A stretch of 64,000 bases of DNA from Christiangramia sediminis (GTDB lineage Bacteria > Bacteroidota > Bacteroidia > Flavobacteriales > Flavobacteriaceae): positions 310,001 to 374,000 of the forward strand of contig NZ_JAJBZG010000005.1 of the NCBI RefSeq assembly GCF_020552705.1. Reading direction: 5' to 3'. Positions 27,930 through 60,232 of the stretch are shown in pieces. Each line of letters starts with the position of its first letter. Position 1 is the stretch's first letter. Made by a program: the position numbers and the translations under genes. Under the pieces are notes generated by a model. The model saw nothing but the letters and a program-made list of their open reading frames with translations. It searched no databases and had not been told where the DNA came from.

Positions 27930-27947
27930 TTTATTCTTTAAACCAAA

Positions 27948-27979: not shown

Positions 27980-28002
27980 AAATATAATGATCATTCAGTT
28001 TT

Positions 28003-44700: not shown

Positions 44701-44703
44701 GTT

Positions 44704-44746
44704 GCTCCTCCTCTTGGGCTCGAACCAAGGACCCTCTGATTAACAG
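44704..44746. repeat. attL: displaced tRNA-Asn 3' fragment
   Basis: Exact 43-bp copy of 60190-60232. It covers the anticodon loop through the acceptor end, starting at the first base of the loop. That start places the crossover at or within the anticodon loop, as for many tRNA-targeting tyrosine recombinases. Confidence 0.93.
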
Positions 44747-44789
44747 CCGCGAAAATGGTGTTTCAGATAATTTCATTTAGCTTCTTATG

Positions 44790-44804
44790 TATTGATAATC
44801 AATA
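44790..44804. promoter_or_regulatory. Palindrome upstream of the integrase
   Basis: TATTGAT and ATCAATA flank a single A. It is a possible operator for the integrase or excisionase promoter. Confidence 0.35.
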
Positions 44805-44858
44805 TTTTACAACTTTTTCCTTGTCATTTAGTTTTACAATATTTACCTTTATTTGCCC

Positions 44859-44883
44859 ATTTGTTGTACCTATGTTGTACCCA
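44859..44883. repeat. Left arm-type repeat of the integrase
   Basis: 25-bp exact direct repeat shared with 60117-60141. It holds two tandem TGTTGTACC units. It lies in the leader of the integrase gene, so integrase binding may also repress its own promoter (TTG at 44821 and TACCTTTA at 44844). Confidence 0.7.
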
Positions 44884-44894
44884 ATTTAAGCCGC

Positions 44895-46103
44895 ATGATT
44901 ACTATAAAAATTGTACAGAGAACAAAGAAATTAACCGATGGGTTGTACCCAATTTTCTTGCGTGTGACCAAAGATCGACAAACTAAATATTACAAAACCC
45001 CATTTAGTTCGGAGATTTCCGAATGGTCAGCTTCAACAGGAACCTTTAACAAAAAGCTGAAAAATCATTTTCAGTATAATCGGTTACTGGTAAAAATTAA
45101 GGATCGGGCTTACCAGGTAGCAGCGGAAATTGAAATTCAAAACCCCGATTATACACTGGAAGATTTTGATAAGCTTTATAGAGTTACCTTCAATCCAGTT
45201 AAAAATGATGTCTTTGCCTTTTTTGATGAAATAGTAGAGGAAATGACTTACGCCGGTCGTGTAGGAAACGCAAAGTCCTATAAAGACACTAAAACATCGG
45301 TGCAAATTTTTCATAAGAGCAAAAAACTTAGTTTTCGGGAAGTTAACTCTACTTTTTTAAGTAAATATGATGCTTTCTTAAGGTCCAGAGGTGGAACCGA
45401 CGGAGGGGTTGGAGTAAAGATGAGAGCCATAAGGGCATTGTTCAACAAAGCCATAGAACGCGGAATTGTGAAAGAAAGTTTATACCCCTTTAAGAAATAT
45501 AAAATTTCAGGCTTAAGAGGCAAAGGTTTTAAACGTGCCCTGGATTTTGAAGAAATAATGCGCATTGTTAATGTAGATTTGAGTAATCATTCGCATTTAG
45601 TTGATACCAGAAACTACTTTGTTTTTAGTTTCTATACTAGGGGAATGAACTTTGCCGACATGATGGGTCTCGAATGGAAAGATGTGGAAAAAAATGCTAT
45701 TTATTACACCCGGGCTAAAACCAAAGGAAATTTCTCAATTGCCATAATGCCCCCTGTAAGAGAAATTCTTGACCATTACCGAATTAATGGGTATGGAAAT
45801 AAATATGTATTTCCATTACTGTATCGTGAAAACTATACTCCTACCCAACTTGCAGATCGAAAACATAAAATGCTAGGGATCTATAACAAAAATCTAAAGG
45901 AACTGGCTACAATATGTGAGATCACAAAAAACGTTAGCAGTTATGTGGCCAGGCATAGTTTTGCTAATTGCCTTAAACAAAAAGGGGTTGCAACTGATGT
46001 GATTAGCGAATCTTTAGGACATCAAAACCTAACTGTAACCCAGGCATATTTAAAAGAATTAGATACTCAGGTTGTGGATAAAGCGCTGGAAGTATTGTTG
46101 TAA
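44895..46103 (+). CDS. Tyrosine recombinase/integrase
   Basis: A 402-residue integrase that joins attP and attB. The ATG at 44895 (MITIKIVQRTKKLTDGLYP) is chosen. A TTG further upstream in the same frame lies inside the arm-site repeat. The N-terminal part (SAM-like core-binding, about 90-190) precedes the catalytic domain, with Arg in FYTRGMNFADMMGLEW, the H-x-x-R in ARHSFANCL, His in GHQNLT and the nucleophile Tyr in TQAYLKEL. All of these are present, so it should be active. The transcription direction points into the element. Confidence 0.93.
   Translation: MITIKIVQRTKKLTDGLYPIFLRVTKDRQTKYYKTPFSSEISEWSASTGTFNKKLKNHFQYNRLLVKIKDRAYQVAAEIEIQNPDYTLEDFDKLYRVTFNPVKNDVFAFFDEIVEEMTYAGRVGNAKSYKDTKTSVQIFHKSKKLSFREVNSTFLSKYDAFLRSRGGTDGGVGVKMRAIRALFNKAIERGIVKESLYPFKKYKISGLRGKGFKRALDFEEIMRIVNVDLSNHSHLVDTRNYFVFSFYTRGMNFADMMGLEWKDVEKNAIYYTRAKTKGNFSIAIMPPVREILDHYRINGYGNKYVFPLLYRENYTPTQLADRKHKMLGIYNKNLKELATICEITKNVSSYVARHSFANCLKQKGVATDVISESLGHQNLTVTQAYLKELDTQVVDKALEVLL
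44942..44955. repeat. Third arm-like site within the integrase gene
   Basis: A 14-bp copy, GTTGTACCCAATTT, of the left arm repeat tail (44874-44887). It sits inside the integrase coding region (codons for GLYPIF). Confidence 0.55.
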
Positions 46104-46242
46104 TTATTCTACTTTAGGGTTGAAGTCTGATTATTTCCTTAAACGATCTTCAATTTCAAAGTCATAAACTCTTTTTAATTCGAATTTTCTCAAAGTCCTG
46201 ATGTAAAACTTTGATTACATTAATTACCTAATTGGTATTTTA

Positions 46243-47352
46243 TTAATTAATACTAAATACTTCCAATTTAGCCTCCCTACCTTTAAGAGTTCTAAATCCT
46301 AGGGAGGATACCTTGTATTTTTTATCTACCATTGTTTTTTTTATTAGTGCGCCTGAAAAAAGTACAGATCTATCTAATTCTTTACACAATCCTTCTAATC
46401 TTGCAGTCACATTTAAAGTGTCTCCATGGTAGGCAAGATTTCTTTTTATATTTCCTACCTCAACTCTGGTAACTACACCGACGTGAGCCCCGGCTTTAAA
46501 GGACGGAGTAACACCAAATTTATCCGTGTAATATTTTGAACGCTCCTGTAAAAGTGCCATAACCCCAAAGAAGAATTCTATATACACATATTCTTTCATG
46601 CCCTCCAAGGGCCAACTTACAACAATTTCGTCTCCCACGTATTGATATATTTCAGCATTATATTTTTTTACCATCTTATTAATATCAAGAAAGCATTCCT
46701 GTATAAGATTACTGTAGGCAATGTGACCCAATTGTTCAGCCATTCTTGTAGAGTTAGAAAGATCCAGGAACATAAAAATGCGTTCTTCTTCTCTCGGATA
46801 TCTAAACCAGCCCAATAAAATAGGAAGTAGGTAGCCAGGACCAAGTATTTTTTCAATTTGGCTGATAAAACTGATTATTAAGGTCATAAACAAGGTGTAG
46901 ACGAGTAGGATAGCATAATGATATATCCAGTTACCTCTTAAAATCACCTCTACAAAACCTATATCCATATGTAATAATTCCAATACCCAAAAGATGATAA
47001 GTCTTGTTAAACTTATCAAACCCATAATTGTTATGAAATAAGCAAAGCTTCCTATAAGTATTGTGAGACCTAAGCTGTTATTTAAATTGGATTTTTTATT
47101 TAAGAAGTATTCAAAAATACCTAGGATGATTCCATTCATAAAACCAAATATTAATACTGTTAGTATTAACATTGCTACACTTAGGGTAAATGGGGAATTC
47201 GTGCCTTCAAAAATTGAAAGACTTGAAAAATATAATATAAAGCCCAGCACTCCGTAAGCTATGATCCAAAAAATTACCTGTTTGATAATAATAGTTAGTA
47301 ATGGAAATCTATAACTTAAACGAATAATCTCATATAAGTAATTTTGTTTCAT
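46243..47352 (-). CDS. Membrane-bound class III nucleotidyl cyclase
   Basis: A 369-residue protein with about five or six transmembrane helices (residues 17-185) and a C-terminal class III cyclase domain. The two metal-binding aspartates are Asp197 (FMFLDLSNST) and Asp241 (YVGDEIVVSW), with the transition-state residues in GDTLNVTARLE (Asn314, Arg318). All catalytic residues appear present, so it should make cyclic AMP or GMP. No cyclic-nucleotide effector is seen in the element. Its gene follows the ACP-like gene on the same strand by 71 bp. Signal and target are unknown. It is probably cargo. Confidence 0.85.
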   Translation of the reverse strand: MKQNYLYEIIRLSYRFPLLTIIIKQVIFWIIAYGVLGFILYFSSLSIFEGTNSPFTLSVAMLILTVLIFGFMNGIILGIFEYFLNKKSNLNNSLGLTILIGSFAYFITIMGLISLTRLIIFWVLELLHMDIGFVEVILRGNWIYHYAILLVYTLFMTLIISFISQIEKILGPGYLLPILLGWFRYPREEERIFMFLDLSNSTRMAEQLGHIAYSNLIQECFLDINKMVKKYNAEIYQYVGDEIVVSWPLEGMKEYVYIEFFFGVMALLQERSKYYTDKFGVTPSFKAGAHVGVVTRVEVGNIKRNLAYHGDTLNVTARLEGLCKELDRSVLFSGALIKKTMVDKKYKVSSLGFRTLKGREAKLEVFSIN

Positions 47353-47423
47353 TAAAAATGTTCTTTAAGCTTTCTAATTAATAGACGGAGAAGGAATCTG
47401 ACAGAAATTTTAGTAGCGGAGGG

Positions 47424-47702
47424 TTAAGGCCAAGGTGTTAACTTAAATCTTTTAAAAGAAGGTGTCATTTTAGGCCTGGATTCTATCCAATCTATAAATT
47501 CCTTTATGGTGGTAAAATCCTGGCGGGTTTTATCAGATTCTACTAAATTTATTAAAAATGCGTTCTCTAAAAGCATAAGTATTTCTATAAAATCAACATC
47601 ACATTGACAGATACTATCTAAATCATCTTCAATCTTAACCGGATATCCTGACCAGAGGCTTAGCTTTTTTTCATAAATTAAATTTTTTTCGTAGCGCTTC
47701 AT
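47424..47702 (-). CDS. Acyl-carrier-protein-like small protein without attachment serine
   Basis: A 92-residue protein whose pattern fits an acyl carrier fold: acidic helix 1, a loop with the DSL-type site, helix 2 (DFIEILMLLENAF), and the TTIKEFIDWI end typical of helix 4. At the site where carriers have D-S-L, this protein reads C34-D-V36-D, so no serine can hold phosphopantetheine. It could be a regulatory or degenerate carrier, or a DUF1493-like protein. I see no ketosynthase or thioesterase partner in the element. It is transcribed upstream of the cyclase, so the two may act together. Confidence 0.5.
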   Translation of the reverse strand: MKRYEKNLIYEKKLSLWSGYPVKIEDDLDSICQCDVDFIEILMLLENAFLINLVESDKTRQDFTTIKEFIDWIESRPKMTPSFKRFKLTPWP

Positions 47703-47831
47703 AAGTATGGTATTTAGTAATGAGCTGTGTATTAGTAATCAAAAACAAGAATGATAATTTTCAGTGAAGAAGTATTGCTGAAATTTTTCCAGAGCAGTAT
47801 TTTTTCTAAAACATTTAATTCCAGATAGGGG

Positions 47832-48440
47832 TTATAATTTTTTTATTTCAAGACCTCTCATTACTTCTTTGCCCTTTTCGGTGGTAATTGCATTCATATA
47901 GAATAAGAGAGCTTCCTCCTGATACCTGGACCTGCTTATCTCTTGGTTATCCAGATAAGGGGTGTTATCATAGCTCATAGTCATTTGGAAAAATAATTTC
48001 GAATAAAAATAGGCATCAAAATCTTTTCGGTATAAGCCTTGACTTCTTCCTCTTTCAACATTATGCATAAGTATTTCCGAAAGTTTTCCGGAAAAATATA
48101 GCATATGTTTATTGAAGATCTGGGGATAATACTTCAGGAGTTGACGAAGAAAGATGGAATCATTGGTTCTTGATGCCTTTTCAATTTCTGTATCTCTGGC
48201 AAACATTCTTTCTATGGCATTCTCGATTGTTTCATCCAGGTCATTCAATTTTTCCAGGACTTTCTCTAAACTGTAACTTAACACCTCCTCAAGAAGTATA
48301 TCTTTATTTTGATACTTTTCATAAAGTGTCTTTTTAGAAACCCGAAGTTCCCTTGCAATCTCGTCCATGGTCACAGTCTTGGCACCATTCTTTAGAAAAA
48401 TCTGGGAAACCTTACTTAATAATTCTGTATCTTTTTCCAT
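47832..48440 (-). CDS. TetR/AcrR family regulator of the efflux operon
   Basis: A 202-residue repressor. The DNA-binding region at residues 10-55 reads MDEIARELRVSKKTLYEKYQ, typical of TetR. The ligand-binding helices follow. It is located just after the RND pump, 110 bp away, on the same strand. A matched inverted repeat in the promoter of the tolC-like gene (54155-54210) is the likely operator. Repression would be relieved by a pump substrate. The reading of it as regulator is inference from position. Confidence 0.88.
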   Translation of the reverse strand: MEKDTELLSKVSQIFLKNGAKTVTMDEIARELRVSKKTLYEKYQNKDILLEEVLSYSLEKVLEKLNDLDETIENAIERMFARDTEIEKASRTNDSIFLRQLLKYYPQIFNKHMLYFSGKLSEILMHNVERGRSQGLYRKDFDAYFYSKLFFQMTMSYDNTPYLDNQEISRSRYQEEALLFYMNAITTEKGKEVMRGLEIKKL

Positions 48441-48510
48441 ATCTCTTAAATTTTTTGCTACTTCTTCAAAGATCTACATTTAATAGAAGTATCGAAATAT
48501 TAGATTAATA

Positions 48511-48539
48511 AATCTGGTTACTTAATCAGTAACCAGATT
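48511..48539 (-). terminator. Palindrome between RND pump and tetR
   Basis: AATCTGGTTACT and AGTAACCAGATT form perfect 12-bp arms around TAATC. On the minus strand it is followed by ATTTATTAA. It may end or attenuate the efflux transcript, or bind a regulator before tetR. Confidence 0.55.
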
Positions 48540-48550
48540 CTATTGATCTA

Positions 48551-51500
48551 CTAGAATTCAAGCTCACTCTTTGGATTGAGGTGCTCGTATTCTGCATGCA
48601 TTAATTTATCATAATCTTGTTTTTCTTTAGAAGAGAATTTCTCTTCAAGCCGAACAAAGATCAGGTAAACCACCGGTACAATGACTAGGGTAAGGAATAA
48701 CGAGGATAATAGGCCTCCAATAATAACGATGGCTAAACCATTGTTCATTTCCGCTGCTGCGCCAGATGCCAGAGCAATTGGTAGCATTCCAAAAACCATT
48801 GCAATTGTGGTCATCAAAATAGGACGAAGCCTGGCGTGGTTTGCCTGGATTAAAGCTGTTCTTATCTTTTCTCCATGGTCTAACCTATGATTAGCAAAAT
48901 CAACCAGCAAAATGGCATTTTTCGCCACCAGGCCTATTAACATAATGATACCAAGAATGGTAAAAATATTCAAACTCTGATCAGTTAAAGCCAGTGCCCA
49001 CAATGCACCTATAAATGAAAGCGGAATGGAAAACAATACAATAAATGGTTTAATAAAATCATCATACAGCACCACCATAATCATATATACCAACATAATA
49101 GCAGCCAATAGCGCAATTCCTAAGGTTCCAAAACCTTCACTTTGATTTTCCATGTTTCCACCCCAGGTCCATTCCACACCTTTTGGCCGCTCAATATTTG
49201 CTAGTTTTTCTTCCCATTCCTGCGCTACTGCTCCCAAGGTTTTCCCTACGGTTTGGGCAGAAATAGTTACAGAAGGAGACCTATCATAACGCTCTAATAA
49301 GGAAGGACCTGATTCATAACTAATATCAGCGAACTGTGCCAGGTTTATTAATTCTCCATTGTTATTGGTGAACTGGATGTTTTGCACGTCTTCTATATTG
49401 TTTCTTGAGGCTTCATCAAAAATAATATTGATATCATATTCATTATTTCCAGTTCGAAATTTATTGTCGGTATTTCCACTAAAAGCTGTACGCATTGTTT
49501 GACCAACTGTAGCAACATTTAATCCCAGGGAAGTCATTTTATCTCTGTTTACATTTACAGAAATCTCAGGATTTCCTTCCTCAACACTACTTTCAATTTC
49601 GGTTGCTCCTTCTACAGTTGTTAATGCTTGTTCAGCAGCTTTTGCATAAGCTAAAGCTTCCTCAAAAGAGTTCCCTGTTATGGTCATTTGAAGAGGTGCA
49701 GCTTCAACTCCAACCAATCCAACAGAAACAGTAGTAACATCGGCTGCAACTAATTTTTGTTCCAGATCTCGTTTTATCCTCGCAGCTATAACGCTAGTTT
49801 TTTCCTCTCTTTCAGATTGATCCACCAGGGTAACCGATACTTCTGATTTGTTATTGGTTGCCTGTGCACCTCCCATACCTCCACTACTGGATTGCCCCAC
49901 AGTGGTAATTAGTCTTTCTACTTCAGGAATTTGTGAAAGGTAATTCTCTGCTTTTTGAGTGATAAAATTTGTCTCTTCAATGGAGGCGTCTTTATCTATT
50001 TCCAATTGAACTAAAAATTCGCCCCTATCGGTTGAAGGAAAAAAGTTGGAACCAATATAACCCATTGCCACTAGGGCGATTGAACTTATGAAGAGCCCAG
50101 CTACAACTACAAAGGTTTTTACTTTATTATCTAAAGACCATTTCAGGATTTTTGTTACTTCCTCTGTAAACCAGGTCAAACCTTTTTCAAACTTATGGAT
50201 GATTTTTCCAAAGAATGATTTATTGCTTATAAGCTCCAATTTTCCAAATCTTGAAAATAACCAAGGCACTACGGTAAAGGAAACCAATAAAGACAGTAAA
50301 GTTGCTATAACTACAGTTACACAGAATTGTCTAATAATGTCGGCCACTAGACCGTCACTTAATGCAATTGGTAAAAATACTACTACAATCACCAGAGTGA
50401 TCGCCGTTACTGTAAATCCAATTTCTGAAGCACCATCGTAGGCGGCACGTACTTTGTTCTTACCCATCTCCATATGACGGTGAATGTTTTCAATAACCAC
50501 AATGGCATCATCTACAAGGATACCTACAACCAATGAAAGTGCAAGCAAACTCATTAGGTTAAGACTGTATCCCAATAACCACATCCCTATAAAGGTTGCA
50601 ATTAACGATGTTGGAATTGCTACCATTACAATAAGAGCATTCCTGTAACTATGCAGGAAAAATAACATTACGAAAGCCACAAGACCTATTGCGATGAAAA
50701 GGTCTTTTATTACTGAGTTTGCTGCTTCCAACGTAAAGACAGAATTGTCATTGGCAATATTTATATCCACACCCTGATCAGCATACTGCTGTTCAATTTC
50801 ACTGATATTTTCCTGTACAAGTTCACTTACGGCCACTGCATTTGCATCAGTTTGCTTTTGAACCTGGAGCAGGATCGTATTATCACGATTTATACGTGCA
50901 ATCTTTTCAACTTCTTTTTGAGTATCCTGAATTTCAGCAATATCAGAAAGTTTAATGTTCTGCCCGTTTTGTGAAGCTATGGTAAGGTTTCTAAGCTTAT
51001 CTACAGACTGTATTTTTCCCGCAAGACGAATAAGTGTAGTATTCTCTCTAGTTTTTAAATTTCCAGTCGGAAAATCCAGGTTTGACGCAGTGATTATTTG
51101 CTGTACCATTGGTACAGTAAGCCCATAACCCTGAAGCCTGTTAGGATCTAAATTCACCCTAATTTCTCTTTCCTGGCCACCTACAAGGTTTACCTGAGCA
51201 ACCCCTGTAAGACGTGAAAAAGCAGGTTGAATTTTTTGATCAATTAAATCATATAATTCATTTTCTGAAAGATCTGCAGTAACTCCCAGACTCATTATAG
51301 GCATATCAGAAACCGAAACCTGCGAGAGGGAAGGTTCGTCAATATCATCCGGAAGATCTGAACGAATAGCGTTTATGCTTCTTTGTGCTTCATTCAACGC
51401 AAAATCTACATCAGCTTCATTATTAAATTGAATGGTTACTACCGACAGACTTTCAAAGGAACTTGTCTGTATTTTTTTAATATTCTCAAGAGAAGAAACA

Positions 51501-51709: not shown

Positions 51710-51725
51710 TTTCTTTTCTTCTCTA

Positions 51726-52781
51726 TTATTTAATCACTTTTACTGCAGTATTATCTGTCAGGTTAATCTGCCCGCTGGTTACCACTACATCTCCTTCATT
51801 AAGCCCATTGTTTACTTGCACCTTGTTTCCGTAATTAATACCGGTACTAATTTCTGTGAGGTATGCAATACCTTCTTTTATAACGAAAACCCGGTTGTCG
51901 CTCACGCTTCCCACGAAAGCTTCCCGGGGTATTACAAGTACATTATTCTCTCCTTTTTGGTTAAACATTGCCGTAGCATACATTCCTGCTCTTAAGTTTG
52001 TTTGGGAATTATCTACAGAAATTTCTACAGGAAATTTTAAGGCTCCATTAGAGGCCGGAGCGATAAAAGTTATCCTACCGTCAATGGTTTTTTTGGTAGC
52101 ACTTGGAGTTACTTTAACTGAATCTCCAAGCTTAAGTTGACTTACGAGAGATTCGTCTACTTCTACTTTTAAGTCTAACAAAGAAATGTCTACTACTTCT
52201 ATTATTGATGTTCCCGGAGCTACGACCATTCCAACTTCAACCATTTTTTTATTTACCACTCCACTCATCTTTGAGCGTACATTGGTGTCGCCGGAATTTA
52301 GTTGGGCAGATTGATACTGCGCCCGTGCATTTTCTACCTGTAGTTTTGCCTGGTCAAGCTGTGAGGCAGTTACTCCCCCCGTTTTGTAAGCAGCCTCGTA
52401 TCTGTTTAGGTTAGACACAGCGTTATCAAGATTGGCTTTTGCATTCTCCATATTGACATTTGCTTTATCTCCAATTAGTTTCGCTATTACCTGACCTTTC
52501 TTTACCTCATCGCCTTCTTCGACATAAATAGCTCCTATTTGTCCTGAGATCTCCGCAGAAATATTTGCTGTAGCTGTGGGTAAAAAAGTACCGTTTACCG
52601 TAAACATGGAACCAATTCTTTCTTTTTGTGCAATTGCAGTGTTCACTGCTACTTCTGTATTTTCCTGTGTTACAATACTTAATTCTCTTTCGTTCTCTTT
52701 TTTATTGTTTTGTAGGATAAAATAAAACGCTACGGCTACGCCTAATAGCAATACTATTGTGATGATTGTCTTTTTTTTCAT
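51726..52781 (-). CDS. RND efflux membrane fusion protein
   Basis: A 351-residue adaptor that links pump and TolC channel in the periplasm. An N-terminal helix (IITIVLLLGVAVAFYFILQ) anchors it. The lipoyl-like half-domains (GQIGAIYVEEGDEVKKGQVI, VRSKMSGVVNKKMVEVGMVV) flank a short coiled-coil hairpin, then the barrel. It begins 1 bp after the tolC-like stop, so coupled. Being short, the hairpin suits an adaptor that contacts TolC tip to tip. Confidence 0.92.
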   Translation of the reverse strand: MKKKTIITIVLLLGVAVAFYFILQNNKKENERELSIVTQENTEVAVNTAIAQKERIGSMFTVNGTFLPTATANISAEISGQIGAIYVEEGDEVKKGQVIAKLIGDKANVNMENAKANLDNAVSNLNRYEAAYKTGGVTASQLDQAKLQVENARAQYQSAQLNSGDTNVRSKMSGVVNKKMVEVGMVVAPGTSIIEVVDISLLDLKVEVDESLVSQLKLGDSVKVTPSATKKTIDGRITFIAPASNGALKFPVEISVDNSQTNLRAGMYATAMFNQKGENNVLVIPREAFVGSVSDNRVFVIKEGIAYLTEISTGINYGNKVQVNNGLNEGDVVVTSGQINLTDNTAVKVIK

Positions 52782-52782
52782 T

Positions 52783-54123
52783 TTAAAGGTTATTTTCGTT
52801 TAATGTGTCTAATTTTCCCTGGGATTTTAAAAGCTCCACTTCTGCTAGTTTATAATCTAACCTGGCATTGGTTAAACTGTTTTTAGCATCAGCAAGTTCT
52901 CTTTCAACATCCAGCATTTCGTTAAGAGTAGCTAAACCCAACTCATAATTATTCTGAGTGTCTTCCAATACTTTTTGAGCAAGCTCCACATTTTGTTCTT
53001 GTGTTTGAATGGAAATAAAACTGTTTTCTAATTGTGAGATCGCATTTTCGTAGGCAAGCTGTAGAGCTAGTTCAGTTTCTTGAAGATCCTCTTCAGCTTT
53101 CTCTATCTCTACTTGGTTCTGCTTCACCTTTGCCCGGGTAGCACCTCCATTAAAAATAGGGATACTGATATTTAATCCTATAGCGCTGAAATCTGACCAG
53201 AAAGCACCTTCGTTTTTTCCATTCCATAGAGGAACAACATCTCCCTGTCCCAGCCAGCCATAGTTAGCTATCAATGAAACTGAAGGATAATATTCAGCCA
53301 GGGTTGATTTTTTCTGAAAATTTAAAAGTTCAATTTGCTTATTAAGTAATTCTAGTTCCGTACGACTGGAAAATTCAAGCTCTATTCCTGGTAAAAATTC
53401 CGGTTGGAAATTTTGTTGTGGCAATCTTATTTCTTGAGAAATGGACATTCCTATCATAAATTTTAATGCATTCTCACTTAATTCTACTGCATTAATGGCT
53501 TGCTGTTTATTACTTTTCAAATTATTTAGTGCTACCATGCTCCGGTCATAATCAATCTTTTTTGCAAGTCCGTTCTCGTATAACCCCTTAACGATACCTA
53601 CCGTTCTTTCTGTGAGTTCTAAATTATTCTGAAGGTTTTCCAGAATCTGCTTTGATTGGAACACCTGATAGTAAGCAACTGCTACTTTTTCAATTATTTC
53701 TTCGTTGGTAAGCTGTGCATTAAGCTTATAAAATTCTTTTGTAGATTTTGCAGCTTTCAAACCCACAAAGACGGCCTGATTGAATATGGTTTGGGAAAGC
53801 TGTGCATTGGCTGTGGAATTCCATTTCCTTCCAAAAGCTACCGCAATACTTTCTCCGGGAGCCCCAAAAATTTCTCCGGGTAATATATTTTCCTGCAAAA
53901 GGGCATTATAGGTAGTTCCCGCATTAGCCGATAAGTTCGGTAAAGCTTTGGCCCTGACCTCAGAGATTTGTGCATCGGCGTTAGTAATATCTAGCCTGGC
54001 CTTAGCTGCATCTGCCTTATGCTCTAAGGCATACGAAACAGCATCTGAAAGTTTGAGCTCCAAGGGTTCCTGACCAAAGGTAATCCCATATACAAAGAGA
54101 AAACCAATTATCATTTTTTTCAT
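52783..54123 (-). CDS. TolC family outer-membrane channel
   Basis: A 446-residue channel of the outer-membrane efflux family. Signal peptide ending FVYGITFGQ, then two repeats of long helices with the pattern LSDAVSYALEHKADAAKARLDI and ISIPIFNGGATRAKVKQNQ, the usual OEP marks. First gene of the efflux operon. The promoter is a textbook TTG-N19-TATATTTG, and a TetR-like operator covers it. Confidence 0.92.
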   Translation of the reverse strand: MKKMIIGFLFVYGITFGQEPLELKLSDAVSYALEHKADAAKARLDITNADAQISEVRAKALPNLSANAGTTYNALLQENILPGEIFGAPGESIAVAFGRKWNSTANAQLSQTIFNQAVFVGLKAAKSTKEFYKLNAQLTNEEIIEKVAVAYYQVFQSKQILENLQNNLELTERTVGIVKGLYENGLAKKIDYDRSMVALNNLKSNKQQAINAVELSENALKFMIGMSISQEIRLPQQNFQPEFLPGIELEFSSRTELELLNKQIELLNFQKKSTLAEYYPSVSLIANYGWLGQGDVVPLWNGKNEGAFWSDFSAIGLNISIPIFNGGATRAKVKQNQVEIEKAEEDLQETELALQLAYENAISQLENSFISIQTQEQNVELAQKVLEDTQNNYELGLATLNEMLDVERELADAKNSLTNARLDYKLAEVELLKSQGKLDTLNENNL

Positions 54124-54154
54124 ATTAGGTACAATTTTTTTGTGATTTAGAATG

Positions 54155-54210
54155 CAAATATAAAACTAAAAAACTATAAAACAATAAAAGTTTTTTTGTT
54201 TTTTAGTTTT
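54155..54210 (-). promoter_or_regulatory. Efflux promoter with overlapping inverted-repeat operator
   Basis: On the minus strand TTG (54182-54184), 19 bp, TATATTTG (54155-54162). AAAACTAAAAAAC (54162-54174) and its exact complement (54198-54210) straddle the promoter; AAAAAACT and AGTTTTTT form an inner pair. Binding there would block both boxes. The likely ligand is the TetR protein encoded in the operon. Confidence 0.7.
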
Positions 54211-54640: not shown

Positions 54641-54655
54641 TGCGCGTGGTTCCTG

Positions 54656-54724: not shown

Positions 54725-54728
54725 ACAA

Positions 54729-54783
54729 TATTTACTGTAAATAATTACCTGTTTATAAGGCTTCCCAAAGTATTTACTGTAAA
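54729..54783. repeat. Paired direct repeat TATTTACTGTAAA
   Basis: Identical 13-bp units at 54729-54741 and 54771-54783, 42 bp apart. Each holds the palindrome TTTAC-T-GTAAA. They could be binding sites for a mobilisation or control protein next to the oriT candidate. Confidence 0.55.
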
Positions 54784-54809
54784 AATTAGGATAATTTGCG
54801 ACAAGTAAA

Positions 54810-54821
54810 TTGTCATGACAA
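54810..54821. repeat. Palindrome TTGTCATGACAA, left copy
   Basis: Perfect 12-bp palindrome, 3 bp beyond the stop of the last mob-operon gene. TTTGCGAC (54795-54802) lies beside it. The same pairing recurs at 56466-56504, upstream of mobC. Confidence 0.6.
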
Positions 54822-54824
54822 ATG

Positions 54825-55271
54825 CTACTTATTTGCTTCCAGCCACTGGTAATATTCGTTCTTGATTTCAGGATTTTCTGAAAGATAATTTTTAAAGAGT
54901 TCACTTTCAGATTTAATCATCTGGTACATTTCAAACTTTTCATCCCCAGCTTTCGTGGCGGAAGATTTAAAATATCCTAATAAGCTTAACATCAGTATTC
55001 CGAAAATACAGAATAGGAAGAGCATATAATTAGGCATGAGCCGGGCATTCTTCAGTTTCTGGTCAATGCTTTTAAGTATGTCATCCTTCAACCGATCATT
55101 CTCTTCCTGCTTTTCCAGGAAAGCGTTCAGGTTTTTATCCAATGCCTCAGTACTTATGGGAATACTCATTTGCTCAATTTCTCCGGAAAGCTCCTGCAGC
55201 TTTAGAATAGCCAGCTTGAAATCGGCCATTTCATCGGTCATCAATTCCATGATCTCATCTAGTTTTTTCAT
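54825..55271 (-). CDS. Mobilisation-module accessory membrane protein
   Basis: A 148-residue protein with no family I recognise. Residues 1-75 are coiled-coil-like (EIMELMTDEMADFKLAILKL, LEKQEENDRLKDDILKSI). A single membrane helix follows (YMLFLFCIFGILMLSLLGYF) and then a charged end. It lies 19 bp after the relaxase gene on the same strand, so it belongs to the mob operon. A role in linking the relaxase complex to a membrane coupling protein would fit, but is inference. Confidence 0.6.
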   Translation of the reverse strand: MKKLDEIMELMTDEMADFKLAILKLQELSGEIEQMSIPISTEALDKNLNAFLEKQEENDRLKDDILKSIDQKLKNARLMPNYMLFLFCIFGILMLSLLGYFKSSATKAGDEKFEMYQMIKSESELFKNYLSENPEIKNEYYQWLEANK

Positions 55272-55290
55272 AATTTATAAAGTTTTAATA

Positions 55291-56157
55291 TCATATTCCA
55301 ATTCCGGTATCCAGCGCCTTTTTTATCACCTGTTTCACCAGGTCTTTGGCTATTTTAGTGGCCATATTAGAGCTGATTTGTACAGTCTTATCTAACAGCT
55401 TTAAGCTTTGAGGGATTTCCTTCAGTCTGGAATAACTTGTGTTTTGACTGATTTCTCCAATTAGTCGGCCACCGGTCATCGAACGGTGCACCTCACTGCC
55501 TTTTAGATTGGCTCCTTTATATTCAAACCGAAAGCCCTGCAACTGGTTAGACTTATTGATGCAGGGGATTACCTTTACCTGGCAGTCCTTCATTTTACCG
55601 ATATATTCATCCAAAGATTTAGGCCTGGATTCCAGTACCCGGTCGTTAATATATTTGATGGCCAGTCGCTGCACTTTCAATTCCTGCAATCTCTCCTGCT
55701 GTACTTCACATACTCGTTTTAGCCCTAATTCTTTGGCCACATTATCTGCTGCGATCTGGCTTCTTTTACCTATAAAGCTATCTTTATAGACTTCTCCTTT
55801 TAGACTTATCCGGTTGGCGTAAATATGAACATGGGTATGAGCTTTATCCCGATGTACAAAGCCAATGGCCTGGTTATTTTGCAGGTTCATCTCCTTTATA
55901 AATCTTTTAGCGATATCTTCAAGCTCTCTTTTGGTCAGCTCCTTTCCATCTTCGATGGTGGGGCTGACCACAAAACTCAGGGTGTTGTTAATGCAGCGTT
56001 CGTTTTGAGATTGAATGATCTTAAACTCTTCAGTAATTTCTTTGGGATTTTCCCCCGCCAGGTATTCCTTAAGCACTACCTCGGCATTCTTCTCCTGGTT
56101 CCAGCCATATGCTATGGAGGCCCCGGTACTTGCTATGGCATGTCCTTTCCCTATCAT
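55291..56157 (-). CDS. Relaxase/mobilization nuclease
   Basis: A 288-residue relaxase that nicks one strand at oriT and leads it into a recipient. The three-histidine metal motif is HTHVHIYANRI. The Tyr for cleavage is probably in IASTGASIAYGWNQ near the start. The C-terminal region is short, with no helicase or primase part, so this is a small mobilisation type. It overlaps the MobC-like gene by 4 bp. The class matches PF03432. Donor transfer would need a helper plasmid or ICE. Confidence 0.88.
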   Translation of the reverse strand: MIGKGHAIASTGASIAYGWNQEKNAEVVLKEYLAGENPKEITEEFKIIQSQNERCINNTLSFVVSPTIEDGKELTKRELEDIAKRFIKEMNLQNNQAIGFVHRDKAHTHVHIYANRISLKGEVYKDSFIGKRSQIAADNVAKELGLKRVCEVQQERLQELKVQRLAIKYINDRVLESRPKSLDEYIGKMKDCQVKVIPCINKSNQLQGFRFEYKGANLKGSEVHRSMTGGRLIGEISQNTSYSRLKEIPQSLKLLDKTVQISSNMATKIAKDLVKQVIKKALDTGIGI

Positions 56158-56450
56158 TTTCTGAAATTTCTTAAGTGCATCCTGATCTCTTCTGCGAGCT
56201 CCGCCACATCTTTGGCTAGCTTAGGGTTCCCTTTTTTAAACATATTGGCAATACGGGCAAAGTTGTTTTTGTATTGTATCAGCATCTGATAGCTTTCCAG
56301 TTGTTCCGGGGTTATACGTTCTACAATATTTCTCTCAAAGGCGGTGGATCGCAAGTATTCGGAAAGGGAAATTCCAGCCCTGGCCGCTCTTTTTTTGAGC
56401 AGCTTTTTCTCGTAGGTCGAGCAGCGTATCTGGATATATTCCCTTTTCAT
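56154..56450 (-). CDS. MobC-like relaxosome accessory protein
   Basis: A 98-residue DNA-binding protein: N-terminal ribbon-helix-helix (REYIQIRCSTYEKKLLKKRA, GISLSEYLRSTAF) and a helical tail with NNFARIANMFKKGN. This is the MobC pattern of plasmids and mobilisable elements. Such proteins bind oriT and help the relaxase. Its stop codon region overlaps the relaxase start. A large inverted repeat 34 bp upstream may be its target or part of its control. Confidence 0.88.
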   Translation of the reverse strand: MKREYIQIRCSTYEKKLLKKRAARAGISLSEYLRSTAFERNIVERITPEQLESYQMLIQYKNNFARIANMFKKGNPKLAKDVAELAEEIRMHLRNFRK

Positions 56451-56457
56451 TTTTCTT

Positions 56458-56619
56458 TTAAAATCTTTGCGACCTGCGGGAGTAAAGCAAGATTGTCATG
56501 ACAATGACACATCTTGCTTTCCCTTCCGCAACTGCGATTGGTCCTCCTGAACCTACCCAAGCTAAATCATCAGATTCAGTATAAGATTCAGTAGCCAATA
56601 CTGTTTTCACTTTTTGCAT
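56458..56619 (-). CDS. Possible 53-residue small ORF before mobC
   Basis: ATG at 56619 to TAA at 56458. It starts inside the last codons of the toprim gene (13-bp overlap, other frame) and reads through the cruciform sequence. The product begins MQKVKTVLATESYTESDD and has a central WVGSGGP. I know no family. It could be spurious and the region purely structural. Confidence 0.3.
   Translation of the reverse strand: MQKVKTVLATESYTESDDLAWVGSGGPIAVAEGKARCVIVMTILLYSRRSQRF
56484..56520. promoter_or_regulatory. Cruciform upstream of mobC with TTGTCATGACAA palindrome
   Basis: AAAGCAAGA (56484-56492) and TCTTGCTTT (56512-56520) enclose the palindrome ATTGTCATGACAAT (56492-56505). The left copy of its 12-bp core is at 54810. 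TTTGCGAC at 56466 is shared with the left copy. It is an alternative oriT or an operator of the mob operon. Confidence 0.55.
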
Positions 56620-57470
56620 TGCATTAATTTTTCATTGAGGTCTTTATAGTTTTTGAAGGAATTCCGTTCATCGGTAGCACTCCTAAATAGTTTTAAAATC
56701 TTCGCTGTAGCTTGATCTCCCGCGGGATCATTATCGAGATATAGACGAATGTTCTCATAATTAGTAAGATGTCCCGTAATTTTATTGGTAAAGGCCAGAG
56801 AATTCAGGATGATAATATCTGATGCCTTTACCAGGTCTTCCTCCAATATTGCCAGAGATAAAAAATCAAACATGCCTTCAGTAATTAATAAAGTTTTAGA
56901 TTTCCTTTTGATATAGGTATAGGATTTTGGAGAGCTGGACCCCTTGAAGTAGCTGTTTCGCAGTTCCCAGCCGCCTAGGGGGTTCTCTAATCCTATAGCG
57001 AAGTATTCCTTGCCGCTATAGCTAAACCAGACCTCTTTGCAATAAGGCTGGGCTATTTTTACAGGGATCTCTCTTTTTGCCAGATACTGGGTCAAGGCCT
57101 CATGTTCGATTTCTCTAGTCCTTAAAACTTCAATTTTAGAAGCAGTTCTCTTTTTTAAAATGGGCTGCTGAAAAGAAAAAGAGTCACAATTGTCTTCTAG
57201 AAACTCCAGAGCCTGTTTAACAGAAAAGTTCTTTATCGCTACGATTAAATCTAGCCCATTTCCGCCCTTTCCAAGCCCATGGTCATACCAACGGTTCAAT
57301 TTTAAAGAAACCTTGAAAGAGGCCTGTGTTTCTGACCGTAGGGGACTCAGAAACCAGGCTTCTTTCTCCGCTATCCTGCTTGGAAAGTGCCCTAGTTTTG
57401 CGAGTATTTTCACGATGCAAATACTACGGGCTCTTTCGCAGGTCACACCAATCTCTTTTTCTTTTTTCAT
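56607..57470 (-). CDS. Toprim-domain primase-like protein
   Basis: A 287-residue protein with a DNA-primase-like N-terminal part and a toprim domain. The N-terminal region (SPLRSETQASFKVSLKLNRW, GKGGNGLDLI) matches CHC2-type primases but has lost the zinc-binding cysteines. The toprim core has LLITEGMFDFLSLA (catalytic Glu) and LYLDNDPAGDQAT (Asp pair). It probably primes replication of the excised circle, with the primase-helicase just before it. Its start follows an intergenic stretch with a 43-residue small ORF. Confidence 0.82.
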   Translation of the reverse strand: MKKEKEIGVTCERARSICIVKILAKLGHFPSRIAEKEAWFLSPLRSETQASFKVSLKLNRWYDHGLGKGGNGLDLIVAIKNFSVKQALEFLEDNCDSFSFQQPILKKRTASKIEVLRTREIEHEALTQYLAKREIPVKIAQPYCKEVWFSYSGKEYFAIGLENPLGGWELRNSYFKGSSSPKSYTYIKRKSKTLLITEGMFDFLSLAILEEDLVKASDIIILNSLAFTNKITGHLTNYENIRLYLDNDPAGDQATAKILKLFRSATDERNSFKNYKDLNEKLMQCKK

Positions 57471-57589
57471 TAGCCTGTTTTTAATATTAAATGACTATAA
57501 ATCATTATACTTCTGCGCATCATTTTTTTTGATGACAAAACGATGCGAAAGTGATGACCCTCCAAAAGCGTTGTTATCACTGGTCTTAT

Positions 57590-57721
57590 TTATATTTCCT
57601 CATCATTCATCAAAAAAAAGAAATACCTAAGGCTGCTTTCTTTGGTGATATCCTCCGAATTACCCGGAATGATGATTTTCCTGGCGGAAAGATCTTTAAA
57701 CCGGTCATTCAGCAGGTTCAT
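57590..57721 (-). CDS. 43-residue small ORF between primase-helicase and toprim genes
   Basis: ATG at 57721, only 3 bp after the stop of the primase-helicase (TAATTGATG), to TAA at 57590. The product MNLLNDRFKDLSARKIIIPG and on is charged, with a YFFF stretch over an eight-T run. Tight spacing favours translation, but there is no known family. The following 120 bp to the toprim start carry no clear gene. Confidence 0.4.
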   Translation of the reverse strand: MNLLNDRFKDLSARKIIIPGNSEDITKESSLRYFFFLMNDEEI

Positions 57722-57724
57722 CAA

Positions 57725-58942
57725 TTATGCATCACTTTTCTGTTCCTCACTAAAATACCGCAGCAGAAAAGATTTGGTAATAGTATAATAACGTCCCTTA
57801 GCAGGAGTTAATCCCAGACCTCCTTCCTGCCACATGATCATCTTCTGATAGTTTAGGGAGTTATCCTGGTTACTCAGTTTCCAGTCTTTTTTTAAGATCT
57901 GCCGCAATTGCGTTAAATCCGTTTTAATACGGGTTCTGTTTAAAACCTGTAAGGCATCCGTGGGGCAAACATTTATTTCGTCCACTTCACAAGTTTCCAT
58001 TAGACTGAAGAGCATGCTAGCCAGTTCCTTTTCCACACGATTTCGGTTATTCTGCATCAAATTTGTCAAAGCATCCGTACTTATCTCTTTAGGGCTAAAC
58101 CACATCCTGGTGCTGTGTTTAGTGATCAACTGACGCTGATCCAAAAAATATAGAAATGCCGGAATTTCTGCTTTAAGATCTTCTAAAAAATGTGTTTCTT
58201 CTTTTTTTAGGCTAGGGACTTTCAGCACCCAAAAGCGTGTTTCCTCACTATCGATTTTAATGAAGTTATCTTCATTGTTACTGCAAAGAATAAACTTGCT
58301 AAAGAACTCCACCTCGCGCTTATCCTTGCCTTTAGCTTCCAGTTTATTAAAATCGGTGGTGCTTAAATATTTGATCCGTTCGGTAAGCTCTTCTTTGTTG
58401 AACAACACTTCATCAATACAGATAAGAAGTTTGTTGGCCCAATCGGCATTAAACTGGCTGCTGAAATTGTCATTGGTTAGATAGGTCAGGTTGTTATCAA
58501 AAATGGCTTTAAGCCATTTTAGAAAGGTGGTCTTACCGGTAACCCTCTCTTTGGATACTAAACATAGAATAGGTAACATCTGCAGCGGTTTCGAATATAG
58601 TAGCTGCAAATAGTCAAGCCCAAGCTCCATCTGGCTTCCGAAAATATGTTCAATGAATCGCAGTGACATTTCGGTCTTACCTTCCTGCGGGATATGCGGT
58701 AAAGGAGAATAGGTGTTGTAAAATCCGTAACAATCCTGTTTAAATTCCTTATGTCCGGGAAGGCAGGTAAAGCCATCATACTTTTTTATGGTTCCAATAA
58801 ATGCCTTTCCGTGATCATTGCGAAGGGTTTCTATATTCCAGGGAACCAAAGTCTCATTAAAATTTCCGGTAGTGGTGGGTATTTGTACTATTTTATAGTA
58901 ACAGGTACCCACCCTGATATAGGATATCTTTTTCATCTTCAA
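57725..58942 (-). CDS. Primase-helicase family protein (virulence-associated E/DUF5906 type)
   Basis: A 405-residue helicase of superfamily 3-like type, common in phages and integrative elements. Walker A is in KERVTGKTTFLKWLKAIF and Walker B in LLICIDEVLFN. The arginine-finger-type region is FSKFILCSNNEDNF. Upstream lies the HTH gene at 26 bp. Function is inferred to be unwinding and starting replication of the excised element, which mobile elements of this kind use to persist. Confidence 0.8.
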   Translation of the reverse strand: MKMKKISYIRVGTCYYKIVQIPTTTGNFNETLVPWNIETLRNDHGKAFIGTIKKYDGFTCLPGHKEFKQDCYGFYNTYSPLPHIPQEGKTEMSLRFIEHIFGSQMELGLDYLQLLYSKPLQMLPILCLVSKERVTGKTTFLKWLKAIFDNNLTYLTNDNFSSQFNADWANKLLICIDEVLFNKEELTERIKYLSTTDFNKLEAKGKDKREVEFFSKFILCSNNEDNFIKIDSEETRFWVLKVPSLKKEETHFLEDLKAEIPAFLYFLDQRQLITKHSTRMWFSPKEISTDALTNLMQNNRNRVEKELASMLFSLMETCEVDEINVCPTDALQVLNRTRIKTDLTQLRQILKKDWKLSNQDNSLNYQKMIMWQEGGLGLTPAKGRYYTITKSFLLRYFSEEQKSDA

Positions 58943-58968
58943 AAAATTTAGGATTAATACTTAATAAC

Positions 58969-59259
58969 CTACTTCCGGTTCTTTAGCAATTTTTGATTAA
59001 ACTGCTGCTCCAGGAATTCATCGGACACATCCGGCTCACCCAATAACCAGGCATCTATCTTATCCTTATCAAAAAACTTCTGACGGATGTTAGGATTATT
59101 GCCGGTTGGTATAAGCTTTAAATGGGTAAGCTTATAGATCTTGCTTTTGGAAAGTCCGGTATATTGAGCCAGATCCTCCACATTCATTACTTTTTTGGTG
59201 TGGGAAAGTAAGACTTTAATATCTTCCAATAAACCCACTACTTCTCTTTGCTCATTCAT
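58969..59259 (-). CDS. Helix-turn-helix protein, excisionase-like
   Basis: A 96-residue DNA-binding protein. The winged-helix pattern VEDLAQYTGLSKSKIYKLTHLKLIP with FDKDKIDAWLL is that of the excisionase/MerR-like family (HTH_17). In such elements it either directs excision with the integrase or controls the replication genes. It is the first gene of the replication/mobilisation operon, with a palindrome and a promoter right upstream. Confidence 0.85.
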   Translation of the reverse strand: MNEQREVVGLLEDIKVLLSHTKKVMNVEDLAQYTGLSKSKIYKLTHLKLIPTGNNPNIRQKFFDKDKIDAWLLGEPDVSDEFLEQQFNQKLLKNRK

Positions 59260-59285
59260 AACGATAGCATTAAAATTAAAAATGA

Positions 59286-59346
59286 GTAAAAGGCCTTTTA
59301 CATTTTGTACAGGACAAACTTAGGAAAGTAAATACCTATAAATCAA
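59286..59346 (-). promoter_or_regulatory. Promoter and palindromic operator of the replication/mob operon
   Basis: On the minus strand TTG (59344-59346), 21 bp and TAAGTTTG (59315-59322) form the promoter. A perfect 16-bp palindrome GTAAAAGGCCTTTTAC (59286-59301) lies 7-22 nt after the expected start of transcription, like an operator in the leader. The HTH protein encoded next may bind it. Confidence 0.6.
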
Positions 59347-59382
59347 TAGGATAACACAGATAGGAAAGAAATCACGCTTTAA

Positions 59383-60057
59383 TTACTCTTTTGCCAGGAC
59401 CTGCCTGATCAATTTTCGCTGATTCCGGGAATTGATTTTTTCCTGTTCGTTTTTCCAGGCGGAAAAACTAGTCTTTAAGGTGTTTTCTTTGAGCGGTTCA
59501 TGATTCATTAAAAATGAATTCATCAGCAAATTGAAAAAGCTACTTTTTCGTTCTCCGGTGAGATCCTGGATCCCTCCTACAAATAATTCATCAAACAAAA
59601 CAAAGAGGACACGGTGATTGGCAGAGTCGCCGCTTTTATTCCCCATGGTAAAATTGATTTTTTCTTTAACCCGCCTTCCATTAATCAACCTAACAAATTG
59701 TTTCTGAGACTCCCGGTCGAGATTGATCAATTCGAAACGTATCCTGGACGTTTTAAGGGGTTCTACCCGGAAATCATGCCGATCTGTTTCAAGATGTTTA
59801 TTTGATTCGTGAAAAATGGCCAGCCAGATCAGAATCAAAAGCATGATACCAAAAAGGATCAGAAAAATGAGGGAGTTCTCAATAATAGAACGAATACCAA
59901 AGAAAAGGCTGAAGCTTAAAACAAAGACAGCGTAAGTAGATAGGATAAAAAGAATTAGGTTTAAAGGTTTCCCTTGTACTTTCTCCTCCAGGAAATAATC
60001 TATTCCTGATCTCCACCTCGCGAGTGCTTTACCGGCGTTAAGAATAAATTTTTCCAT
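59383..60057 (-). CDS. Membrane protein of unknown function at the element end
   Basis: A 224-residue protein I cannot assign. Two or three hydrophobic segments (LNLILFILSTYAVFVLSFSL, LIFLILFGIMLLILIWLAIF) are followed by a soluble domain of about 135 residues with many charged positions and the block HRVLFVLFDELFVGG. It lies between the replication operon and the right end, on the same strand. Unlike the mob genes it has its own intergenic space. A role as element maintenance or entry-exclusion factor is only a guess from position. Confidence 0.55.
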   Translation of the reverse strand: MEKFILNAGKALARWRSGIDYFLEEKVQGKPLNLILFILSTYAVFVLSFSLFFGIRSIIENSLIFLILFGIMLLILIWLAIFHESNKHLETDRHDFRVEPLKTSRIRFELINLDRESQKQFVRLINGRRVKEKINFTMGNKSGDSANHRVLFVLFDELFVGGIQDLTGERKSSFFNLLMNSFLMNHEPLKENTLKTSFSAWKNEQEKINSRNQRKLIRQVLAKE

Positions 60058-60116
60058 GGCAACAACTGCTTCAACCTATTAAATATAGCCAAAAGAAAAA
60101 TAAAGAAAGAGATTTA

Positions 60117-60141
60117 ATTTGTTGTACCTATGTTGTACCCA
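60117..60141. repeat. Right arm-type repeat
   Basis: 25-bp exact repeat of 44859-44883, same direction, 48 bp inside the right end, beside the tRNA terminator. Confidence 0.75.
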
Positions 60142-60144
60142 CAA

Positions 60145-60178
60145 AAAAAAGAAAGCCACTCAATTTCTTGAATGGCTT
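60145..60178 (-). terminator. Terminator of the intact tRNA-Asn, carried by the element
   Basis: AAGCCACTCAA (60153-60163) and TTGAATGGCTT (60168-60178) pair with one mismatch; an eight-T run follows on the minus strand. It differs from the terminator at attL, so the element seems to bring its own. Confidence 0.8.
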
Positions 60179-60189
60179 GTCTTTACTAA

Positions 60190-60232
60190 GCTCCTCCTCT
60201 TGGGCTCGAACCAAGGACCCTCTGATTAACAG
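60190..60232. repeat. attR: tRNA-Asn 3' end, right copy of 43-bp repeat
   Basis: Exact copy of 44704-44746. It forms the 3' part of the intact tRNA, so insertion keeps the tRNA working. Confidence 0.93.

Follow-up and report, generated by a model that had tools for sequence, protein, structure and literature searches.

Integrative and mobilizable elements (IMEs) with a MobP relaxase are known from Bacteroides, where NBU1, NBU2, Tn4555 and Tn4399 are described as being mobilized by integrative and conjugative elements (ICEs) with a VirD4 coupling protein and an MPF-B pore (PMC5704250). Efflux pumps of the resistance-nodulation-division (RND) type, in turn, are mostly regarded as intrinsic and vertically inherited (PMC3564043). 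In Christiangramia sp. OXR-203, a 15.2-kb genomic island of 16 genes, GI1, has been listed with a multidrug efflux transporter, TolC and a recombinase; that study predicted a transfer event for each island, mentions mobile-element genes for GI5, GI6 and GI9 alone and uses the word "mobilizable" once, for plasmids (PMC12016528). Here, we describe an element of 15,486 bp (44704 to 60189, followed by a second copy of its 43-bp end at 60190 to 60232) in a stretch of 64,000 nucleotides from Christiangramia sediminis (contig NZ_JAJBZG010000005.1 of assembly GCF_020552705.1, positions 310,001 to 374,000), which is called the window and to which all positions refer. From a comparison with related genomes, we are confident that it is an IME that carries an efflux pump and is moved with the help of an ICE.

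RESULTS

The element occupies the 3' end of a tRNA-Asn gene

The exact 43-bp ends named in an initial annotation of the window, made from the sequence alone, were confirmed as identical direct repeats (Table 1). The right-hand copy forms the 3' end of a complete tRNA-Asn(GTT) predicted by ARAGORN on the minus strand, and the host genome (3.25 Mb, 5 contigs) contains only these two copies when up to 3 mismatches are allowed. The number of exact 43-mer pairs expected by chance in 64 kb of uniform random sequence is about 3e-17, and this value, the exactness of the repeats and the two-copy count in the genome rule out a chance origin. Since the 43-mer has no other genomic copy at up to 3 mismatches, insertion at tRNA-Asn would presumably deprive the cell of this tRNA unless its 3' end were rebuilt. 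A 25-nt repeat with a pair of TTGTACC words lies close to both ends and probably represents the arm sites of the integrase; both copies are exact in a second genome of the genus (G008), and a third one (G013) has one exact copy and one TTGTACC pair.

The initial annotation had proposed to look for strains with an empty tRNA-Asn site, and these were indeed found within the genus. The porin gene that adjoins the distal end of the element was located in 19 of 24 genomes. A complete tRNA-Asn was present 0.3 to 1.4 kb from the porin gene in 10 of the 19, with the exact 43-mer in eight (G001, G005, G006, G007, G011, G016, G019 and G022), 4 mismatches in G015 and 2 mismatches in G004; up to ~1 kb of other sequence separates porin and tRNA-Asn genes in some of them, e.g., G001 and G006. 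The tRNA-Asn site was occupied in three genomes (the window genome, G008 and G013), the tRNA side and the porin side ended two contigs with a 55-bp overlap, corresponding to the empty form, in one (G017), and the 43-mer was not within the stretch examined near the porin gene in five (G002, G012, G014, G020 and G021). G022 has a clean empty site, whose flanks align with those of the window at 79.3% and 80.4% and are joined over exactly one 43-nt copy. When the flanks of the window were joined at one att copy, they matched G022 with 98.0% over 197 nt spanning the junction. These empty sites rule out a stable chromosomal backbone: the gene order is not fixed in all relatives, and a nearly identical island is present in diverged hosts.

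Two further observations were made at these sites. In G017, a metagenome-assembled genome (MAG), the overlap between the end of L006 and the start of L146 is exact over the 55 bp, as at an assembler branch, and empty and occupied sites may coexist in the population that was sampled. In G001, four copies of a 24-nt piece that matches the start of the att region lie 111 bp apart beside the empty tRNA-Asn (L099, ~3080-3436).

Nearly identical copies are present in another species and another genus

In G008, the complete element lies in the same tRNA gene, next to that genome's own porin gene; 56 of 15,561 bases differ, with no gaps. Identity spans 44668 to 60351, that is, from 36 bp outside the distal att site to 87 bp past the tRNA; farther out, alignment of the porin-side flank is limited to two pieces (82% and 73% identical), and the other flank could not be aligned with the window. 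All 14 open reading frames (ORFs) of the element are full length in this copy (13 by ORF check, tolC by a full-length tblastn match). The differences are concentrated in a tract of 791 bp (Table 1), outside of which only 14 of 14,770 positions differ. We suspect that this sharply bounded tract arose when a related pump operon of this type exchanged alleles with the element; a donor of the adaptor/tolC tract was not found.

The element was also found in the tRNA-Asn of Gillisia sp. CAL575 (L014), with 53 differences in 14,971 bases; the comparison covered these 14,971 bp and the tRNA-side flank, the distal end and the porin-side flank lying outside the stretch compared. For the tRNA-side flank of CAL575, no match to the window was obtained (E 1e-10); against the corresponding flank of G008, it aligned at 72% over 1.4 kb. 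The rpoB gene of the window host is 91.1% identical to that of G008, 90.1% to that of Christiangramia bathymodioli, 82.2% to that of CAL575 and 82 to 84% to those of four Gillisia genomes, whereas CAL575 rpoB is 93.6 to 95.8% identical to that of three other Gillisia genomes. By rpoB, the window host is thus placed with C. bathymodioli, and an assignment to Gillisia was rejected. The genus of the window host includes C. bathymodioli (G015; L028) and Christiangramia sp. PW1 (G017; L027). Because the element is nearly identical while rpoB is only 82.2% identical and CAL575 groups with Gillisia, we read the CAL575 copy as a transfer between genera. The nearly identical island in two other species, one of them in another genus, suggests that whole pumps are passed among marine bacteria by a helper-dependent element. 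Thus, the proposal of the initial annotation that an efflux phenotype can move between flavobacteria stands as far as the genes are concerned, as judged by comparison.

At the same tRNA-Asn site, G013 has a 97%-identical integrase together with a 73%-identical relaxase and other cargo, namely, genes for SulP and MFS transporters, a methyltransferase, an AAA/DUF4143 protein and a PAS kinase.

The element encodes mobilization functions and a tripartite pump

The 14 ORFs of the element were searched against Pfam, NCBIfam and PADLOC were also used, and 8 of the 14 were searched against PHROGs. From the distal end, the gene order is the integrase on the plus strand and then 13 genes on the minus strand, from the cyclase-like gene to the gene of a 224-aa protein (Table 1). 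The integrase, the HxHxY relaxase, the primase and helicase and the TolC-MFP-RND-TetR block (MFP, membrane fusion protein) named in the initial annotation were all recovered by these searches, the block by the Pfam families OEP, HlyD_D23, ACR_tran and TetR_N. The integrase ORF was listed from a TTG at 44853, and the ATG at 44895 is the likelier start; a PHROGs match was obtained for it as well. The relaxase contains HTHVHIY, and its residues Y17, H102, D104, H107, H109, H111 and N115 were invariant in an alignment of 12 relaxases; we take these and the invariant integrase residues K275, R353, H376 and Y385 to be catalytic. MbpA reached 113.8 bits against the equivalog model NF041418 (cut-off, 90). 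The outer-membrane, adaptor and permease genes of a tripartite RND system lie in one operon-like block. In line with the earlier statement that no transfer pore is encoded, none of the 14 ORFs had a Pfam match to a type IV secretion, mating-pair formation or coupling protein.

Table 1. Positions of the element, its genes and its candidate sites in the window
Feature	Positions	Strand	Evidence or remark
Terminator-like site beyond distal att, outside element; read as displaced host terminator	44674..44700	-	Consensus scan
Distal att site (43-nt copy of tRNA-Asn 3' end)	44704..44746		Exact direct repeat; empty-site relatives have one copy
Candidate arm site of integrase (TTGTACC twice, 11 bp apart)	44859..44883	+	Exact 25-nt repeat close to both ends
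Tyrosine integrase, 402 aa	44895..46103	+	PF17293, PF13102, PF00589; K275, R353, H376, Y385 invariant in 10 integrases
Cargo: nucleotide cyclase-like protein, 369 aa; inspection suggests an N-terminal membrane part	46243..47352	-	PF00211 1.5e-8; weak PycC match; 45% to second-lineage cyclase-like gene
Cargo: 92-aa protein, weakly acyl-carrier-protein-like	47424..47702	-	No Pfam match; PHROGs acyl carrier protein 0.0003; open in other two copies
Cargo: TetR-family regulator	47832..48440	-	PF00440
Cargo: RND efflux permease, 1052 aa	48551..51709	-	PF00873 2e-261; best PDB match MdtB 1.3e-135
Cargo: membrane fusion protein (adaptor)	51726..52781	-	PF16576 (HlyD_D23); TIGR01730 above cut-off
Divergent tract versus G008 (791 bp)	52506..53296		Adaptor and tolC genes; 42 of 56 differences; 5.3% there
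Cargo: TolC-family outer-membrane protein (OEP)	52783..54123	-	PF02321 2.6e-54
Inverted repeat preceding tolC; weak candidate for a TetR operator	54162..54210		Full palindrome not found in second lineage
DUF6730 protein, 148 aa, in mbpC position	54825..55271	-	PF20503; in at least 73/80 related loci
MbpB-like MOBP relaxase	55291..56157	-	PF03432 2.6e-28; NF041420 1.7e-25, under cut-off; motif residues invariant
MbpA relaxosome protein	56154..56450	-	NF041418 above cut-off; PF21983 NikA-like
Candidate oriT: hairpin, then conserved GCTTT-CTCCC-GGTCGCAAA box	56466..56520	-	One match each in 79/80 loci; DNA fold z = -4.7
Primase-like protein (Toprim_2)	56607..57470	-	PF13155; PHROGs DNA primase
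DUF5906/VapE-like helicase, ORF listed from TTG start	57725..58942	-	PF19263; PHROGs primase families
HTH_17 protein, candidate excisionase	58969..59259	-	PF12728; PHROGs excisionase phrog_66 5e-5, ranked under two unknown-function families
224-aa protein of unknown function adjoining att site	59383..60057	-	Homologues in 9 other loci at 57-71% identity
Second candidate arm site of integrase, oriented like the first	60117..60141	+	Exact 25-nt repeat
Terminator-like site directly after tRNA, element-supplied	60153..60178	-	Consensus scan
tRNA-proximal att site, tRNA-Asn 3' end	60190..60232		Exact direct repeat inside tRNA
Intact tRNA-Asn(GTT), target gene, 3' end restored by element	60190..60264	-	ARAGORN; 43-mer elsewhere only at distal att

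A hairpin and a conserved box upstream of mbpA are a candidate origin of transfer

The 156 nt between the primase gene and mbpA contain the hairpin CAAGAT-G-TGTCAT-TGTC-ATGACA-ATCTTG, which is followed by GCTTTACTCCCGCAGGTCGCAAA. A scan for the relaxase with one genome per GTDB species gave 160 relatives, the best 80 of which were studied. With up to 1 mismatch, the box (Table 1) occurred 79 times on both strands of these 80 loci (1.55 Mb), and in 79 of the 80, as well as in the window, it was located upstream of mbpA at a distance of no more than 170 nt; it starts 30 to 128 nt from mbpA, at a distance of no more than 50 nt in 71 of 80. The hairpin comes in two forms, found in 57 and 23 of 81 sequences, and one pair of the second form is T-A in 14, C-G in 7 and broken (C-A) in 2. 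Stems of at least 6 pairs with a 4-nt loop were present in 78 of 80 motif-bearing sequences versus 13 of 1,620 simple shuffles. Since related sequences are not independent, these counts are a measure of conservation and not a probability. We regard hairpin and box as a strong, conserved candidate for the origin of transfer (oriT). The box was also present, with one mismatch, in a Myroides plasmid, and it was not matched within 4 mismatches in the Bacteroides mbpABC plasmid NZ_CP103146, although a similar hairpin lies upstream of mbpA there. Since 79 of 80 loci have a single occurrence of it, the candidate oriT could serve as a simple marker for finding such elements.

The relaxase family combines with different integrases and cargo

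The stretches around the relaxases extend no farther than 10 kb from the relaxase gene, and co-occurrence counts are, therefore, lower bounds. At a coverage of at least 40%, the best 80 of the 160 loci contained the DUF6730 gene in at least 73, the primase in at least 54, the HTH gene in at least 50, the helicase in at least 34 and the 224-aa gene in at least 12 cases; a pump like that of the window was present in at least four (L014, L027, L028 and L030). Where both ends were covered, tRNA 3' ends were found repeated across the relaxase for Met, Leu, Ala and Ser genes. A second lineage (L027, L028, L030 and G013) has a 75- to 77%-identical relaxase and a pump with 86 to 87% RND identity. In G060 (L030), this lineage starts with a different integrase, upstream of which lies a gene that we take to be mnmE, and a second RND set follows further along. 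A larger element with two RND sets (L027, L028, L030 and L166-L169) is 96 to 98% identical between one Gillisia genome and several genomes of the Christiangramia group, and it seems to be located behind mnmE.

Within the genus, an RND permease of at least 83% identity was present in 6 of 24 genomes, and a relaxase of the family was 3.6 to 4.3 kb away in five of the six, G004 being the exception. In a scan of 199 genomes of the family in which three candidates were scored per genome, 10, including the window, passed E 1e-200 for the RND permease, the other 9 at 44 to 64% identity. None of these 9 was among the 21 genomes of the 199 that had the relaxase at E 1e-60. Outside this group, pump and relaxase are thus not linked. 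One further pump operon, with an RND permease of 62% identity (L195; G186:C6:1-15000), has a relative of tyrosine integrases at 9665-10798, beside the TetR gene, and is perhaps a third mobile setting.

Other genes and sites of the element

The 224-aa protein next to the att site had no family match in Pfam, NCBIfam, PADLOC or PHROGs. It aligns with its homologues in the 9 other loci without gap columns and represents an unstudied gene of these elements; its predicted structure is all helical, with low confidence (mean pLDDT, 61.6), and nothing is claimed from the model. The same holds for the model of the 92-aa protein (mean pLDDT, 48.6; low confidence), in which the serine usual for acyl carrier proteins seems to be absent on inspection. 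The inverted repeat upstream of tolC turned out to be weak and was abandoned as a conserved TetR operator.

DISCUSSION

Proposed mode of transfer

The integrase together with direct-repeat att sites at a specific locus, a relaxase of its own, and empty and occupied sites in relatives are features of an IME, and these findings, with no pore gene matched, support the tRNA-Asn IME that the initial annotation had proposed. We envisage the following mode of transfer. The integrase would bind to the TTGTACC-pair arm sites that flank a core consisting of the last 43 nt of tRNA-Asn and would insert the circular form there, and insertion would give tRNA-Asn its 3' end and its terminator back. Excision to a circle would take place probably with the HTH_17 protein as directionality factor. 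In this circle, the hairpin oriT that directly precedes mbpA would be nicked by MbpA and MbpB, and the DNA would exit via the coupling protein and the pore of a CTnDOT-type ICE present in the same cell. The primase and the helicase probably assist in copying the single-stranded or the circular form. Carried along as cargo are the putative TolC-MFP-RND pump, its TetR regulator and the nucleotide cyclase.

A possible helper is encoded in the window genome itself, which has a CTnDOT-type TraG above the cut-off, adjoined by matches to TraK, TraM and TraN below the cut-off. In the genus, TraG was present in 12 of 12 relaxase-bearing genomes versus 3 of 12 relaxase-free genomes (two-sided Fisher p 0.0003, or 0.0007 without two incomplete genomes), with no correction for kinship or genome size. 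An IS110-family transposase is located near the tra genes of the window genome (L181:3155-4210).

This missing correction weighs against a helper-dependent IME, as do several other points. Gillisia MAG UBA3175 (G061), which is 2.6 Mb in size and possibly incomplete, has three relaxase loci (L018, L022 and L024) and no TraG match. L060, 1 of the 80 loci, is without the oriT motif. MbpB scored 90.1 bits against NF041420, far below the NCBI equivalog cut-off of 400 bits, and is a relative rather than an equivalog; the excisionase-like assignment of the HTH protein is based on weak matches in Pfam and PHROGs. Finally, we infer excision and transfer from sequence comparison.

Alternative explanations

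The alternative that survives best concerns the cargo only. It is possible, although we doubt it, that the pump exports a native metabolite or membrane component instead of drugs or toxic compounds and that it is perhaps controlled by the cyclase; both of the mobile lineages that were examined have a cyclase-like gene close to the pump, and the hosts are marine. However, the permease is nearest to MdtB among solved structures, the multidrug models NF033617 and TIGR00915 outscored the heavy-metal model TIGR00914 (all under cut-off), and no cyclase match was obtained in the stretches around nine related operons in other genomes. The cyclase as a general partner of the pump is, thus, unsupported outside the two mobile lineages, and within them a regulatory or signalling link of cyclase and pump appears possible. 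The second-lineage cyclase-like ORF is located at 27225-28382 of the joined stretch in G060:C3 and is 45% identical to that of the window.

It is improbable that the island is a remnant that was formerly mobile and is now fixed, with its mobility genes retained by chance. Such a remnant would fit with the one tract that points to ordinary homologous exchange, but it would hardly be expected to have 14 of 14 ORFs full length in the G008 copy, only 14 differences in 14,770 positions outside the 791-bp tract between two species, and a copy in a second genus. Still less probable is a spread of the whole chromosomal region by homologous recombination after transformation or transduction, without site-specific integration. 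The target tRNA is indeed the same in all three hosts, and the identity of G008 does continue beyond both ends, for 36 bp outside the distal att site and, on the other side, to 60351. On the other hand, the farther flanks of G008 are at 73% and 82% or unaligned, the tRNA-side flank of CAL575 is unaligned at E 1e-10, and G013 has a different element at the same att site. The least probable explanation is a phage satellite moved by packaging: the genes for the VapE-like helicase, the primase and the HTH protein are reminiscent of the replication modules of satellites, and the PHROGs matches for primase, helicase, HTH protein and integrase are those expected of genes shared with phages. However, the element has a relaxase, MbpA and a conserved oriT candidate, the searches gave no match to capsid, terminase or packaging families (Pfam, 14 ORFs; PHROGs, 8), and IMG/VR had no match to an oriT pattern or to the RND protein.

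Pumps as possible mobile cargo

An IME moved with a helper ICE would explain how a complete pump and its regulator came to be almost unchanged in the same tRNA gene of hosts at 82% and 91% rpoB identity, and it makes the spread of efflux operons among environmental Bacteroidota experimentally testable. Beyond this locus, we lean toward the view that one Flavobacteriaceae-wide family of integrated elements, with one relaxase type and one structurally conserved oriT, is a common marine carrier that exchanges its integrases (at many tRNA sites and perhaps at mnmE) as well as its cargo and moves complete tripartite RND pumps, together with a partner cyclase, from one genus to another. If this is true, pumps that are usually regarded as core genes act as mobile cargo here.

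Comparison with known systems

The mobilization region has a counterpart in the MbpA-MbpB-MbpC region, which was reportedly first described on pLV22a. The element shares with Bacteroides plasmids of this type (NF041418/NF041420; NZ_CP103146) the order of mbpA, mbpB and a third gene, the overlap of mbpA and mbpB and, in the case of NZ_CP103146, a CAAGA-type hairpin upstream of mbpA. It differs in a relaxase that is only 30.5% identical, in the DUF6730 gene as the third gene and in being integrated instead of a plasmid.

As described in PMC5704250, NBU1, NBU2, Tn4555 and Tn4399 share the MobP relaxase with our element, and NBU1, NBU2 and Tn6031 of Sphingobacterium share a tyrosine integrase and a tRNA 3' end as the target. 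The tRNA genes used by the latter three are those for Leu, Ser and Pro, in contrast to tRNA-Asn here, and the element differs from the Bacteroides MobP IMEs described there by its MbpA/MbpB-type pair, a whole RND pump as cargo and a host from the marine Flavobacteriaceae. It does not use the tRNA-Leu site of NBU1 (PMC5704250) and is likened to NBU1 in mechanism only. According to PMC8409611, Salmonella genomic island 1 and its relatives are also helper-dependent resistance islands and use the 3' end of trmE, as we suspect for the second efflux lineage, but their hosts and helpers (IncA and IncC plasmids) are unrelated.

The closest record is GI1 of Christiangramia sp. OXR-203. The OXR-203 genome is one contig of 3.40 Mb and G008 is one contig of 3,395,452 bp, and from this genome make-up and the gene content, the island is very probably already listed as GI1. 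The initial annotation knew of no description of this arrangement. The island was very probably on record, but not as a mobilizable element, and section 16 of PMC12016528 mentions no tRNA, att site, relaxase or mobilization for it. Among the titles and abstract openings retrieved, none named this arrangement. The element is of a known kind, the MobP IMEs; as far as these sources show, its att sites, the empty sites, the spread between genera, the oriT candidate and the association with a helper are new.

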